Assembly: GCF_002931555.1 (NCBI RefSeq)
Contig: NZ_PSTZ01000009.1
Coordinates: 62,001 to 126,000 of the forward strand
Reading direction: 5' to 3'
Length of the DNA: 64,000 nucleotides
DNA from: Pseudoclavibacter sp. RFBB5
Lineage (GTDB): Bacteria; Actinomycetota; Actinomycetes; Actinomycetales; Microbacteriaceae
A program made the position numbers and the translations under genes. This document shows, piece after piece, positions 2,729-8,301 of this stretch; positions within the stretch are counted from its first letter, which is position 1; every line of letters starts with the position of its first letter. The notes beneath the pieces are model-generated. The model did not search any database and was not told the origin of the DNA. It saw only the letters and a list, made by a program, of their open reading frames with translations.

Positions 2729-3256
2729 TCAGGCGACGGCGAACGCGAAGCCGACGCAGCCGACGGCGATGACCGCCGCGAGCACGAGAGCCACGACCCA
2801 ACCGCGATGCCGACGCGCGAGCACTGCCAGCAGCACGGCGACCGCGGCGATGCTCGCACCGGTGTACAGCGGCCAGAGCGGAGACGGCGTCACCGCGACC
2901 GAGAGCGCGGTTGCGACGATGCCGGCCGTGAGCGACAGCAGCGCGGAGACGACGAGCGCGAACCGGCTCAGGCCCAGACCTGCGGGCTCAGGCGATCTCG
3001 TCGTCGGAGCGGATGCTGACGCGGTCGCGTTGGCCTGGACATGCGCGACGGCCGGGTCGACCTCCACGCGCGGAGCCGACGCCGCGACCGCGGCGGTTTC
3101 GGTGCCGGCCTCCGCCGGCGGGTGACCGTCTGCGGTCGTCCGCGGGGTGAGCGCCGAGTAGGCGGCGTTGCTGGTGTCCTCGACCGGGGTGCGGTCGATC
3201 GGCGGCAGCTCCACCGGTTTGCGCGGCGGCAGCTTCGGCTGCTCCGGTGTCGTCAC
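2729..3256 (-). CDS. Small membrane protein of unknown function
   Basis: 175 residues. A charged and Pro/Ala-rich N-terminal half ([18 protein letters not shown]) of about 95 residues is predicted cytoplasmic and disordered. The C-terminal half has about three hydrophobic segments ([58 protein letters not shown]). GTG 3256 is chosen because AGGGGGA lies upstream; it overlaps the stop of the RimI-TsaD gene by 4 bp, so translational coupling is likely. I recognise no family. Linkage to the t6A cluster is positional only. Confidence 0.72.
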
Positions 3257-4851
3257 GCGATTCCCCCTCCTGCTGAATCCCTCATCGCTGATCCCACCTG
3301 CACCCCGAGGGGCGTCGCCACCGGCAGGGTCGAATCCGCGGCGAAGTCGAGCGGCGCCGGCGCCTTGCCCGCGGCGAAGAGCATCGCACCGACCGCGGCG
3401 ATCATCGCCCCGTTGTCCGTGCAGAGACGGAGGGGTGGGATGCGCAGCTCGATCCCGGCTTCCGCGCAGCGCTCCTCGGCAAGCTCACGCACACGGGCGT
3501 TGGCCGCTACTCCCCCGCCGAGAACAAGACGGGGCACGCCGAGTTCGGTGCAGGCGGCGACCGCTTTGGCGGTGAGCACATCGGCCACCGCCTCCCGGAA
3601 GCTCGCGGCGACGTCGGCGACGGGCACGGGGTCGCCTGCATCCTCCCGCGCCTCCACCCACCGGGCGACAGCGGTCTTGAGGCCCGAGAACGAGAAGTCG
3701 TAGCGATGCTTCTCGAGGTCCTTCGGCTTGGTCAGTCCCCGCGGGAAGCGGATCGCCCTCGGGTCGCCGCCGGCGGCAGCCTTGTCGATCTCCGGACCGC
3801 CCGGGTACGGCAGGCGGAGCAGGCGCGCTACCTTGTCGAATGCCTCGCCCGCCGCGTCGTCGATCGTCTCACCGAGCAGCTCGACATCATCGACGAGGTC
3901 GCGGACGTGCAGGAGAGACGTGTGCCCGCCCGAGACGAGCAGCGCGACGGCGGGCAGCTCGAGCTGGCCGACATCGTCGCGGAGCACGTCTGCCGCGACG
4001 TGGCCGACGAGGTGGTTCACCGCGTAGAGCGGGATGCCTGTGGCGACGTGCAGCGCCTTGGCCGCCGCCGTACCGACCATGAGCGCCCCCGCGAGGCCAG
4101 GGCCCTGGGTCACGGCGATGGCATCGAGCTCATCGAGCGTCACCCCCGCTGTCTCGAGGGCCGCGGCGATCGTCGGCACGATGGCATCGGCGTGGGCGCG
4201 CGCGGCGATCTCCGGCACGACGCCACCGAAGATGGCGTGCTCATCCATAGACGAAGCCACCTCGTTGGCGAGCAGTTCGCGACCGCGGACGATGCCGACG
4301 CCGGTCTCGTCGCACGACGACTCGATGCCGAGCACCAGCGGCTCCCGTCGCGAACCCGCCGCGACGCGCGTTTCCGCAGACACCCGAACCGCTGGCAGCT
4401 GGCCGCGCATCACGATCGCATCCACACCCTCTCTTGGGTAGTACTTCGGCCTCCGGCCGATCTCCTCGAAGCCGAGCCCGGAGTACAGGGCCCGGGCCGC
4501 CTCACCGTTCTCGCGCACCTCGAGGAACACCTGCTTCGCGCCGCGGCCCTCGGCCCAGGCGAACAGCTCGGCCAGCATCCGCGTCGCCCACCCGCCGCGC
4601 CGGAGCCGCTCGTCGACGGCGATCGTCTGCACATCCGCCTCGCCACCGCCCTGCAGCGCCATGACTCCTGCGGCCGCGAGGATCTCACCGGTAGCCGCGT
4701 CCTCGACGACGACATACCTCGTGTGCTGGCTCTTGACCTCGCCAGCGAGCATGGACGGCGACCACGGGTCGAGCGGGAACGCCGCCTCGTCGAGCCTCAC
4801 CATGGCTGGGATGTCGTCATGGGACGCGTCGCGAAGCACGGCCCGCATCAT
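3253..4851 (-). CDS. tsaD: RimI-TsaD fusion: ribosomal-protein/N-alpha acetyltransferase joined to t6A transferase TsaD
   Basis: 532 residues, one uninterrupted frame. Residues 1-152 are a GNAT acetyltransferase of the RimI type, with the acetyl-CoA loop RRGGWAT at about 85-91 and the AALYSGLGF-like C-terminal strand at 118-128. After a ~20-residue linker, residues 171-532 are a full Tsa[11 protein letters not shown], the metal ligands H280-x3-H284, [18 protein letters not shown], and a C-terminal [10 protein letters not shown] Asp ligand. RimI acetylates the N-terminus of bS18 and other proteins; TsaD with TsaB and TsaE transfers threonylcarbamoyl to A37 of ANN-decoding tRNAs. Both activities appear intact. 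The ATG start overlaps the tsaB stop by 4 bp (ATGA). Confidence 0.95.
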
Positions 4852-5463: not shown

Positions 5464-5469
5464 ATTCTA
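5464..5469 (-). promoter_or_regulatory. -10 element (TAGAAT) for leaderless tsaB transcript
   Basis: TAGAAT on the minus strand, 7 nt upstream of ATG 5456, the spacing at which a -10 puts the transcription start at the A of the ATG. Its first three bases are the TAG stop codon of tsaE. No convincing -35 is seen. Confidence 0.5.
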
Positions 5470-6045
5470 CGCGGGGGACGCGCCGAACTCGGTGCGCAGC
5501 GCGCGCCCGAGCGACTCGCCGACGGGACGGTCCCACACCCCGTGGACGCTCAAGGTCAGACGGCGTGGGTCGAGCGGCTCGTCGTCCGCGTCATCATCAT
5601 CGTGACCCCCACCCCACAGGGCCCGTTCAGCCTCTGGCACCGCACGGAACGACGCCGTCGAACGGTCGATGGTGAGCTCCAGCCAGCGATCGGCGACCAG
5701 CGGCACCGCATCCCGCCCCCACTCGACGACGGTCACGCTCGCAGCCAGATCGAGTCCGAGGTCGTCGAGCTCCGCGGGGTGCCCGAGGCGGTAGGCGTCG
5801 ACGTGGATGAGCTCGGGCCCGCCCACGAGCGACGGATGGGTGCGGGCGAGCACGAAGGTCGGACTCGTGACCGGTCCACGGACCCCGAGTGCCGAGCCGA
5901 GTCCGCGCGCGAACGTCGTCTTGCCTGCGCCCAGTGGGCCGGTGAGCACGAGGACGTCGCCTGCCACCAGCTGGCCGCCGATGATCTCGCCGGCCCGAAC
6001 CATGTCGTCAGCCGTGGCGAGACCGACGACGGCACTCGGTGCCAT
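5467..6045 (-). CDS. tsaE: TsaE, ATPase of the t6A complex
   Basis: 192 residues. Walker A GPLGAGKTT at ~36-44, a TSPTFVLARTH segment, HVDAYRLG, and the VVEWGRDA motif identify the YjeE/TsaE family, the P-loop ATPase that regenerates the TsaBD complex. The C-terminal tail is longer than in E. coli TsaE and contains an acidic run (GGHDDDDADDE). ATG 6045 is chosen because GGGAG lies 6-9 bp upstream and the start then falls 1 bp after the alr stop; ATG 6057 is a weaker alternative with an 11-bp overlap. The open frame continues far upstream, but that part is the alr gene read in the wrong frame. Confidence 0.93.
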   Translation of the reverse strand: MAPSAVVGLATADDMVRAGEIIGGQLVAGDVLVLTGPLGAGKTTFARGLGSALGVRGPVTSPTFVLARTHPSLVGGPELIHVDAYRLGHPAELDDLGLDLAASVTVVEWGRDAVPLVADRWLELTIDRSTASFRAVPEAERALWGGGHDDDDADDEPLDPRRLTLSVHGVWDRPVGESLGRALRTEFGASPA

Positions 6046-6046
6046 C

Positions 6047-7930
6047 TCAGCTCCCATCTGCCGCCCCCATTCCTTCCCCCTGGAGTTCCCGGCGCACGAC
6101 GCGGGGGCCCAGCGCCGCCACGAAGGCCCTGGGTTCGACGCCAGACCATGCGGCCCATTCATCGAGGCGGATGTCCTGAGGGCCCGAGCCGAAGACGGAG
6201 ACCGGCATGCCGATCCACGCCTCCTGATCCTGGAGATCGATGACCACCTGGTCCATGGCCACGCGTCCGACGATCGGTCGCCGCCGGCCACCGACGACCA
6301 CCTCGGCCCGGCCTGCGACCCGACGGGGAATGGCGTCGGCGTAGCCGAGTGGGACAAGCCCCAGGATGGTGGACTCCTCGGCGACCCAGTCGTAGCCGTA
6401 GGAGACGCCGTGCCCTGCCGCGACACGCTTGACGTGCACGAGCTCGCTCGCGAGAGAGACCGCCGCGTGCGCTCCCAGCCCGTCGAACCCGTAGACCGCG
6501 CGGGTGCCGGCGTCCCTCGTGCGCTCGTGGTCGACGAGCGTGCTGCTCCGTGCCGACTCCCCGATGTGCGCGAGCTCCGCCGTGGTCGCGACGAGCGGGA
6601 GCAGGCCGTGTTCGAGGGCAAGACCGGCGACGAGTCGCGCGCCGAGCCCGTACGCGTCCGCCGAGACGTCGACGCTGAACATCCGAGCCGCCTGGCGAGC
6701 TCCCGTCCCATCGGCGAGCGCCTTCGCGAGGCCGCGTGCTCGCTCGCCCATGCGCGTGCGCAGCAGCTCGACGTCGACGGTGAGCTCCCGCCGCGGCGCG
6801 AGACCGTCGGTCCGCGCCGGGAAGCCCGCAGCGTCGTCCGGTGCTGCGCCGCCGAGTGCGGACGGGCGGCGCGGGATGCGCGCACTGAGCCGGGTGACGA
6901 CCTCGTAGTTGATGGTGCCCGCCGCGGCCGCCCAGTCGTCGGCGCTCGCAGAGCGATCCGCGTCGATGACCATCAGGCGAGGCTGCTCGTCACGCGCGGC
7001 TGTCTGCTCGGACGGGGCGACGTCAGCGTCGACCGGCTCGATGCGAAGCTCCAGGGCCTCGACCGATGCCAGGCGCCAGCCGGCCCCCGCGTCGTCCGCG
7101 AAGAGCAGCGAACCCGGTGCAACCGGGGGCAGCCCGGCTGCATGCCCGACGTCGACTCGAAAACCTCGTTGGTCTTCGCGGATCGGAGCGCTCAGCGCGA
7201 GCGCCGGTCGCAGGGCCACGGGACAGTCGGCGTCCGCGGAGAACGGCGAGAGCCCGTACAGCGAGACGCCGAGGCGCACGAGGTCCAAGCGCGCCTCCGG
7301 CAACGTCATCGAGCCCGCCGTCGCGGCCAGATGCCGGATCGACGGAGTCAGCCCGCAGCGTTCCGCGAGATCAAGCGCACGCTCGAACGAGGTGAGCTGG
7401 GCGACGTCAGCCGCGTGGCCCGCACCCGCGAGGTGGCTGAAGAGCCCGTCGAGCCGGATGATGCCTCGTTGCTCGAGCTCGGCCGCCTTCGTGAACGCGG
7501 CTTCCCACTCGAGCACACTGATCCCGTTGCGCCCGAGGCCGGTGTCGAGCTTGAGATGCACCGCCACGGAGCGATCCGAGTGCTCCAGGCGACCAAGACC
7601 GATGTCCAGGAGTTCAAGCTGGGCGAGCGAGGAGATGCCCAGCTCGATCTCAGCGCCCAGCGCCGCGAGCCAATCGGTGCGGGCCCCGTGCATCCAAGCG
7701 AGGATGGGCGCGGTGATGCCAGCCGCCCGGAGCGCGAACGCCTCAGCGAGGTCGACGACGCCGAGGCGCTCCGCTCCGCCCTCGAGTGCGGCCCGCGCTA
7801 CGTCGGACGCCCCGTGCCCATAGGCGTTCGCCTTGACGACGGCGAGGAGGGGCGTGCCGGTGAGCTCGGCGACCGCGCGCACGTTCGCCCGGATGGCATC
7901 GAGGTCGACCTCGATGCGGGCGCCGGTCAC
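6047..7930 (-). CDS. alr: Alanine racemase, unusually long tandem/pseudo-dimeric form
   Basis: 627 residues, against ~370 for the family. Residues 1-250 form a complete PLP barrel: VVKANAYGHG with the PLP lysine K33, GLGRNG (R134), SHLAG (H166), VRLGVSLYG (R219). Residues ~250-355 are a degenerate racemase C-domain that has lost the catalytic Tyr loop but keeps WAAAAGTINYE. Residues ~380-490 look like a truncated second barrel in which KANAYGHG has become SADAYGLG (K to S423). Residues 490-615 are an intact C-domain with GHGVSYG (catalytic Y511), VPLGYAD and GRVAMDQ. In ordinary Alr dimers each site takes Lys from one chain and Tyr from the other, so this chain could hold one composite site. 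Role: D-Ala for peptidoglycan. It overlaps acpS by 4 bp. Confidence 0.9.
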   Translation of the reverse strand: MTGARIEVDLDAIRANVRAVAELTGTPLLAVVKANAYGHGASDVARAALEGGAERLGVVDLAEAFALRAAGITAPILAWMHGARTDWLAALGAEIELGISSLAQLELLDIGLGRLEHSDRSVAVHLKLDTGLGRNGISVLEWEAAFTKAAELEQRGIIRLDGLFSHLAGAGHAADVAQLTSFERALDLAERCGLTPSIRHLAATAGSMTLPEARLDLVRLGVSLYGLSPFSADADCPVALRPALALSAPIREDQRGFRVDVGHAAGLPPVAPGSLLFADDAGAGWRLASVEALELRIEPVDADVAPSEQTAARDEQPRLMVIDADRSASADDWAAAAGTINYEVVTRLSARIPRRPSALGGAAPDDAAGFPARTDGLAPRRELTVDVELLRTRMGERARGLAKALADGTGARQAARMFSVDVSADAYGLGARLVAGLALEHGLLPLVATTAELAHIGESARSSTLVDHERTRDAGTRAVYGFDGLGAHAAVSLASELVHVKRVAAGHGVSYGYDWVAEESTILGLVPLGYADAIPRRVAGRAEVVVGGRRRPIVGRVAMDQVVIDLQDQEAWIGMPVSVFGSGPQDIRLDEWAAWSGVEPRAFVAALGPRVVRRELQGEGMGAADGS

Positions 7931-8301
7931 GCGCCGGCTCCAGCGCCGACAGCCCGCTCGGCGATGACAAACGCGGTCGCCGTCGTGCGCTCATGGGTGA
8001 GCGAGAGGTGCAGGTGGTCGACACCCACGGCGTCGAGATGCGCGCGGAGCGCGGGCGTCACCGCGAACTCGGGTCGACCCGCGGGACCGCTCTCCACCTC
8101 GAAATCGAGGAAGCTGAGCGACCCGATACCGCCGAGCGCCTTCACGGCCGCCTCGCGAGCCGCGAACCGTGCGCCGAGTGACGCCACAGACCGCTCCCGC
8201 TCAGCGGGAGTGAAGAGTCGTTCACGCAAGCGCGGCGCCCGCTGCAGAGCCCGCGCGAACCGCGCGAGCTCCACAGTGTCCACTCCGATACCGACGATCA
8301 C
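7927..8301 (-). CDS. acpS: Holo-[acyl-carrier-protein] synthase
   Basis: 124 residues, typical for AcpS. The first motif GIGVDTVELARF carries the Mg-binding D8; the second, FAAREAAVKALG, carries the conserved Glu and Lys; SLTHERTTATAFV closes the fold. AcpS transfers 4'-phosphopantetheine from CoA to a serine of the acyl carrier protein, activating fatty-acid synthesis. The start is GTG 8301, 6 bp after the glmS stop, and the gene overlaps alr by 4 bp, so glmS-acpS-alr-tsaE read as one unit. The CoA precursor gene coaA lies just across the glmS promoter. Confidence 0.94.
   Translation of the reverse strand: MIVGIGVDTVELARFARALQRAPRLRERLFTPAERERSVASLGARFAAREAAVKALGGIGSLSFLDFEVESGPAGRPEFAVTPALRAHLDAVGVDHLHLSLTHERTTATAFVIAERAVGAGAGA

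Follow-up and report, generated by a model that had tools for sequence, protein, structure and literature searches.

The locus and its genes

The window analysed here is a stretch of 64,000 nucleotides from Pseudoclavibacter sp. RFBB5, and it contains, on the minus strand, a single uninterrupted open reading frame of 627 codons (coding part 6050-7930) for an alanine racemase (Alr) about 250 residues longer than usual, as had been stated in a first-pass annotation made from the sequence alone (Table 1). The gene lies between acpS and tsaE, and from the coordinates its start overlaps the stop codon of acpS (7927-7929) as GTGA; glmS is found past acpS, and beyond tsaE follow a gene of the TsaD family, taken as tsaB, and then the GNAT-TsaD gene. 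GlmS, AcpS, TsaB and TsaD are encoded in the same order around other fused genes (L055, L056, L059, L060, L062, L063, L065, L067, L043 and L044), around the canonical Alr of L039 and L041, and around the tandem Alr pairs of L046-L049; the neighbour search did not find these four around the split loci L035, L038 and L040. The fused gene occupies the usual alr locus and shares its neighbours with canonical Alr.

Table 1. Positions in the window of the fused gene, the segments of its product and the neighbouring genes
Feature	Position	Strand	Description
GNAT-tsaD gene	3253..4851	-	RimI-like GNAT acetyltransferase fused to TsaD, one 532-residue protein
tsaE region	5467..6084	-	downstream neighbour, exact start not settled; TsaE match
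fused alanine racemase gene	6047..7930	-	627 codons; GTG start; stop codon 6047-6049; TIGR00492
C-domain 2, residues 491-616	6083..6460	-	catalytic Y511; Y530, R536, M559-D560
barrel 2 remnant, residues 379-490	6461..6796	-	S423 at the PLP lysine site; mid-barrel (R136, H166 region) deleted
linker, residues 357-378	6797..6862	-	low predicted confidence, fastest evolving
C-domain 1, residues 241-356	6863..7210	-	Tyr265 loop deleted, Met312-Asp313 lost, Tyr354 kept (Y342)
barrel 1, residues 1-240	7211..7930	-	PLP lysine K33; Y37, R134, H166, R219
acpS	7927..8301	-	upstream neighbour at the usual alr locus; ACPS match

Domain architecture

The fused protein exceeds the cut-offs of the alanine racemase families, with 285.5 bits against 168 for TIGR00492 (NCBIfam), and 188.5 against 24.1 for PF01168 and 141 against 25 for PF00842 (Pfam). 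Pfam places Ala_racemase_N at residues 8-229 and matches Ala_racemase_C twice, best at 490-614, the weaker match corresponding to the end of the domain only; in the phmmer search against the PDB, the best entry is aligned in three stretches, 5-249, 485-581 and, with the C-terminal end of Alr, 319-355. An ordinary member of the family has one barrel and one C-domain in about 370 residues, with the full catalytic set in each protomer, which the fused protein does not meet; the PLP lysine and the catalytic tyrosine are present in 12 of 12 fused proteins (K33 and Y511), but in different halves. Because of its 627 residues and the splitting of the catalytic residues over two halves, the protein is regarded as a divergent variant and not as an ordinary Alr.

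Two trivial origins of this architecture had been left open by the first-pass annotation. That the middle 230 residues or so are an unrelated insertion is ruled out, since residues 319-355 match the C-termini of Alr and are followed by the start of an Alr barrel; in all 12 fused proteins the motif TINYE at the end of C-domain 1 is invariant, and the PLP-lysine site of barrel 2 reads S/T/G-x-x-AYGxG. A sequencing or assembly duplication is likewise ruled out by 11 other proteins of the same architecture, with 42-91% identity to that of the window, by its presence in 19 of 19 genomes from two genera, and by dN/dS values below 1 in every segment.

Division of the active-site residues

The partition of the residues was aligned over 12 fused proteins and 19 canonical Alr, with the numbering of the Geobacillus enzyme. 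According to passages in PMC4517790 and PMC3245724, one protomer contributes the PLP lysine, Y43, R136, R219 and Y354 to a site, while Y265', Y284', R290', M312' and the neighbouring Asp' come from the other; PMC4517790 also has the active sites of canonical Alr need two protomers. H166 was taken as a cis residue, although His166 is once written with a prime in PMC4517790. In the canonical control, K39, Y43, R136, H166, R219, Y265, Y284, R290 and M312 occur in one chain in 19 of 19 proteins, and the exceptions are limited to D313 (N in one) and Y354 (D or E in four). In the fused proteins, half 1 has K39, Y43, R136, H166, R219 and Y354 and lacks Y265, Y284, R290, M312 and D313, without exception in the 12 sequences; half 2 has the latter five in all 12, with S (10), T (1) or G (1) at the K39 position, R136 and H166 deleted, and E, Q, R or A at the Y354 position.

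These data agree with the first-pass annotation in that C-domain 1 is without the Tyr loop, that the second barrel, of about 110 residues, is shrunken and without the PLP lysine, and that C-domain 2 keeps the tyrosine and the Met-Asp pair; K33, R134, H166, R219, S423, Y511, M559 and D560 are all located where they had been placed. To that list can be added the Tyr354 equivalent Y342, in half 1 only, and the Tyr284 and Arg290 equivalents Y530 and R536, in half 2 only. The stronger claim, that each key residue survives exactly once, holds for nine of eleven positions and fails for Tyr43, retained in half 2 as well in 12 of 12; at the remaining position the R219 column of half 2 (P in 6, R in 5, A in 1) falls at the deletion edge near an invariant R477, so that the alignment is ambiguous and cannot say whether R219 was kept or lost. 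Within barrel 2, Y427 (6650-6652), the Tyr43 equivalent, is invariant together with the AYGxG loop in all 12 proteins despite the loss of the lysine, and the arginine R477 (6500-6502) is equally so. Neither the retention of Tyr43 in barrel 2 nor the R219 column with its invariant neighbour is predicted by simple decay, and both count against the explanation preferred below.

Structure models and selection on the segments

Single chains were modelled with AlphaFold2 from an alignment of the 12 fused sequences, with pLDDT 81.2 and pTM 0.85 for the window protein and pLDDT 82.5 and pTM 0.85 for the fused protein of Gulosibacter macacae, pTM being the model's own estimate; in the window model the ten-residue mean pLDDT falls to 33 in the linker. 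The Foldseek comparison with the PDB, in which 50 matches are listed per model without residue ranges, returned two kinds of alignment: short ones of 364-403 columns (rmsd 2.8-4.8 A, TM(target) 0.74-0.87), which make up 7 of the 50 matches listed for the window model and 34 of those for the G. macacae model, and long, badly fitting ones of 616-637 columns (rmsd 16.7-19.4 A, TM(target) 0.52-0.62), which account for 43 and 16, respectively. From their length and identity, the short alignments are inferred to represent half 1 as a protomer by itself. The long alignments must place barrel 1 and C-domain 2 on one protomer, and their bad fit is therefore read as an indication that, in both models, C-domain 2 is predicted elsewhere than in its cis place; their predominance among the matches listed for the window model is a point against the preferred explanation. 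A whole-chain pTM of 0.85 would mean that the position of C-domain 2 relative to half 1 is confidently predicted, and this fits the position of a dimer mate. The prediction of the whole chain, proposed in the first-pass annotation as a way of placing K33 relative to Y511, has thus answered in part: C-domain 2 appears off the cis place, and a pairing of K33 with Y511 is inferred.

Nei-Gojobori dN/dS values, obtained by segment for the window gene against four close relatives, are below 1 in every segment, with 0.10-0.13 in barrel 1, 0.05-0.11 in C-domain 2, 0.17-0.26 in C-domain 1, 0.18-0.29 in barrel 2 and 0.38-0.96 in the linker. The catalytic quarters (barrel 1 and C-domain 2) are the most constrained, and the silent quarters are constrained too, as expected of a scaffold. 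A decaying pseudogene is ruled out by these values and by the conservation among the fused proteins.

Distribution of the fused form

The fused architecture was searched for in 60 related genomes, and a second genus was searched afterwards; every one of the 10 genomes from the window's genus has it (interrupted by contig ends in one, G005), as do 9 of 9 from the second genus, G029 included, which makes 19 of 19 genomes, in line with the presence of the architecture in relatives by which the first-pass annotation was to be judged. The scan of named genomes gave 13 fused loci (L055-L067), among them those of Pseudoclavibacter terrae, P. helvolus, Gulosibacter hominis, G. chungangensis, G. macacae, and [Zimmermannella] alba and faecalis; L066 is partial and the frame of L064 is broken. 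In the latter (L064:4694-6600, Gulosibacter sediminis) the fused gene lies in two frames, through either a sequencing error or a real break.

With the window protein as the query, no other Alr-like place was found at E <= 0.001 in 8 of the 19 genomes (G008, G009, G029, G131, G191, G240, G283 and G320), and the other 11 have further ones. PF00842 was tested in eight fused-form genomes, namely those just listed minus G191 and plus the window's own, and in seven of the eight all matches fall inside the fused gene; these seven had been picked because the earlier search found nothing else there. Two of the seven are single contigs with 99% completeness, and the other PF01168 matches in them are weaker. 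The window's own genome has PF00842 in two further loci besides the fused gene, which need not, for that reason, be the sole source of D-alanine there. One further Alr-like protein of this genome, the third (G000:C7:391661-392746, L036), has the lysine and the tyrosine, with Met-Asn instead of Met-Asp and Ala at Tyr354.

Two-gene counterparts

In the window's genome, a Tyr-subunit gene and a Lys-subunit gene are adjacent at G000:C1:586345-588074 (L035:6328-8075), flanked on one side by a gene of the DNA gyrase B type and on the other by a pair of GATase_3 and Mur-ligase genes, presumably GatD/MurT. The Tyr-subunit is short, with the PLP lysine changed to Arg and with Tyr265 and Met-Asp retained; the Lys-subunit has every cis residue except Tyr354 and is without the Tyr loop. 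A Tyr-subunit profile (six sequences, 234 positions) has near-full-length matches, from position 6 or earlier to 229 or later, in at least 64 of 398 genomes of the family. Residues were checked in the best 30 of these loci (L135-L164), genomes behind the profile included, and both halves are present in all 30, as two genes in 29 and in a single frame in one (L155).

In the 29 two-gene loci, the K39 position of the Tyr-subunit is R in 28 and a gap in one, Y265, M312 and D313 are constant, R290 is found in 28, and Y284 in 24 (F in five). The Lys-subunit has K39, R136, H166, S204 and R219 in 29 of 29 and Y265, M312 and R290 in none; D313 is kept in 27 and Y284 in 13, and the Y354 position is D in 26 and E in three. 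A possible start codon overlaps the stop of the Tyr-subunit by four bases in 23 of the 29. The exception, L155:259-2754 (G004, of the window's genus), is one frame of 832 residues in which the Tyr-half precedes the Lys-half and an Ala-rich stretch separates the two; the nearest in-frame start-type codon upstream of the Lys-half is a GTG 33 codons away, which leaves an internal start possible.

Some tandem loci have an Alr1 and an Alr2 that are both full-length. In one full-length tandem pair (L051 of G017; 5716-7002 and 6582-8090), the copies are complementary already, the first with K changed to T at the PLP lysine and the second without the Tyr loop and without Met-Asp, and this pair may represent a possible intermediate. 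Among the side observations, a divided pair provides the only Alr-like matches of G024 (L045), a reduced genome of 927,303 bases, with Asn at Tyr43 of the Lys-subunit, and two separate near-full-length Tyr-subunit matches occur in each of G170, G221, G266, G305, G339 and G368. Of 119 genomes sampled across the order, two matched at E <= 1e-50, namely that of the window and another from its family, the latter over positions 82-233 only. As 8 of the 22 genomes listed for this sample belong to the same family and the threshold would miss weaker Tyr-subunits, an absence outside the family is only suggested.

Evolutionary history

In a tree of 79 of 145 barrels, half 1 of the fused proteins forms one clade (100/99), and the Lys-subunits form a separate clade (96/98) together with full-length Alr2 that have Asp or Glu at Tyr354; these full-length Alr2, which carry both residue sets, lie inside the split group. 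In the AU test on the barrels, the fused and split forms as a single clade are rejected (p 3e-5), as are the split forms alone (p 3e-5), and for a clade of fused, split and full-length Alr2 the rejection is not clear (p 0.054). The C-domain tree, built from 83 of 149 C-domains with 129 columns, places 17 of 19 true Tyr-subunits among Alr1 (97/92), the remaining two standing elsewhere on long branches, and a single clade of fused Tyr C-domains and Tyr-subunits is rejected (p 5e-4). The C-domain set included three canonical genes labelled as Tyr-subunits (L069, L083 and L134), the tree groups were named after a first quick tree had been seen, and the C-domain tree rests on few columns. C-domain 2 stands beside Micromonospora-type Alr (95/89), in rows chosen for their similarity to C-domain 2 and on a long branch, and the C-domain tree for these reasons supports no inference on the origin of half 2.

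The trees and the AU tests together lead to the inference that the division of the active site probably occurred at least twice. In the split pair, a Tyr partner of the Alr1 type may have been combined with a Lys partner of the Alr2 type, as the tandem Alr1-Alr2 loci would suggest.

Proposed mechanism and alternative explanations

The best explanation, held with considerable confidence, is that the window encodes an asymmetric, pseudo-dimeric alanine racemase with a single site, for which the activity, the monomeric state, the pairing of K33 and Y511 within the chain and the fusion at this very locus are all inferred. Two Alr copies at the alr locus would have become joined head to tail, and the parts of the two composite sites would afterwards have been shared out between them. 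Half 1 would fold as an Alr protomer and supply the residues of its own site (K33, Y37, R134, H166, R219 and Y342), and half 2, its barrel shrunk to an interface scaffold, would take the place of the dimer mate and supply the in-trans residues, namely the catalytic base Y511 with Y530, R536 and M559-D560. The chain would then have a single working site (K33 and Y511), with C-domain 1 and barrel 2 retained as structural parts, and L- and D-alanine would be racemised for peptidoglycan by the usual two-base Lys/Tyr chemistry. The fused pseudo-dimer with a single composite site, which the first-pass annotation had proposed, finds support in the residue partition, its conservation in 12 of 12 proteins and the placement of C-domain 2 off the cis position in the models; the strong purifying selection on barrel 1 and C-domain 2, the like division of K39 and Y265/M312 in 29 of 29 two-gene loci and the one natural frame in reverse order speak for it as well. 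Alanine is indicated as the substrate by the retention of Tyr354 in all 12, by the alr locus and by several genomes in which no other protein has an Alr C-domain, the activity itself being inferred.

The main competitor, unlikely but not excluded, is a domain-swapped homodimer: barrel 1 of each chain would be covered by C-domain 2 of its partner, and the enzyme would have two equivalent sites and not be monomeric. The two-protomer requirement of canonical Alr (PMC4517790) speaks for it and the linker, with its low pLDDT, could permit swapping; the pTM of both single-chain models speaks against it only weakly, as only single chains were predicted. It is scarcely credible that half 2 is a decaying remnant or a regulatory appendage and half 1 an ordinary homodimer: the half-length alignments of the models do fit a complete protomer, but, given the absence of Y265, Y284, R290, M312 and D313 from half 1 in 12 of 12, a half-1 homodimer would have no tyrosine base, and C-domain 2 is, moreover, the most constrained segment. 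Loss of the racemase activity, with the protein retained for a different role (binding of PLP, action on a different amino acid or a pseudoenzyme function), would agree with the lack of any activity data and with the two other Alr-like systems in the window's genome; this is very unlikely in view of the main catalytic residues that are kept and of the sole Alr-C protein in seven of eight tested genomes, although a D-amino acid transaminase route to D-alanine is not excluded.

As regards the origin, a single ancestor, already divided, of both the fused gene and the two-gene loci, instead of separate events, would account for the same partition in both forms and is compatible with the barrel clade of fused, split and full-length Alr2 that could not be clearly rejected; the rejection of the clade of fused and split forms, for the barrels and for the Tyr C-domains (the latter in the set with three mislabelled canonical rows), and the position of full-length Alr2 with both residue sets inside the split group disfavour a single shared origin, which is considered improbable.

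The substrate of the split pair may be a different one. The Tyr354 position is reported to set substrate specificity (PMC4517790), and diaminobutyrate or D-ornithine is given for the peptidoglycan of Gulosibacter (PMC6113628) and of other Microbacteriaceae (PMC7033078). Asp or Glu at Tyr354 and the peptidoglycan of the family suggest that the split pair is a diamino-acid racemase, a substrate assignment that is no more than an inference; against such a role, several Gulosibacter-group genomes show the fused gene only and G024 the split pair only, so that one enzyme may have to do both jobs. The most extended reading is that the half-sites were divided at least twice in Microbacteriaceae, to give, in the Alr lineage, a monomeric fused Alr, in some hosts the sole source of D-alanine, and, separately, obligate heterodimers of Tyr- and Lys-subunits from the Alr2 lineage, once joined in reverse order, that by virtue of Asp or Glu at Tyr354 racemise D-diaminobutyrate or D-ornithine for type-B peptidoglycan; it is offered as a tentative proposal, somewhat more apt to fail than to hold.

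Significance and comparison with known systems

Bacteria normally obtain D-alanine, a building block of the cell wall, from an enzyme in which two identical chains jointly form two active sites; alanine racemase, a classic target of antibiotics, is the textbook case of a homodimer whose sites are composite. In the literature searched, which left out most subscription journals, no description was found of an Alr that is heterodimeric or fused with a single site. In a natural chain that can form one site, the contributions of the two half-sites are separated, and it becomes testable whether Alr needs a second site at all; the split pair becomes a candidate D-diamino-acid racemase of type-B peptidoglycan. 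The family holds undivided Alr1 and Alr2 tandems, the complementary L051 pair, two-gene pairs of reduced size and forms joined in either order, and with this range of forms a route from a homodimer to an asymmetric enzyme can be followed and tested.

The closest known system is the canonical homodimeric Alr (TIGR00492; PF01168 and PF00842; PDB 1XFC, 1VFH and 2DY3), with which the fused protein shares the fold, the Lys/Tyr residue set and the locus, and one protomer of which superposes on half of the fused model; the fused protein differs in being about 250 residues longer, in having the PLP lysine and the catalytic tyrosine once per two protomer-equivalents, and in offering one possible site per chain with no symmetry of chains. 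The two-gene loci of Microbacteriaceae present the same division, one partner having Tyr265 and Met312 without the PLP lysine and the other the reverse; they differ from the fused form in their separate genes, in their neighbours (in the window's genome) and in the Tyr partner standing first, and in a Lys partner of a different lineage with Asp or Glu at Tyr354. Dead paralogues are also known as dimer partners in ornithine decarboxylase (ODC) with antizyme inhibitor and in the decarboxylase-prozyme pairs of trypanosomes, where they regulate or activate; here, in contrast, the second catalytic base would come from the partner, which in the window belongs to the same chain. In summary, the first-pass annotation was right about the residues and very probably about what they mean: the fused protein is an asymmetric form of a known enzyme that has not been met in the literature searched, and the same holds for its two-gene counterpart.
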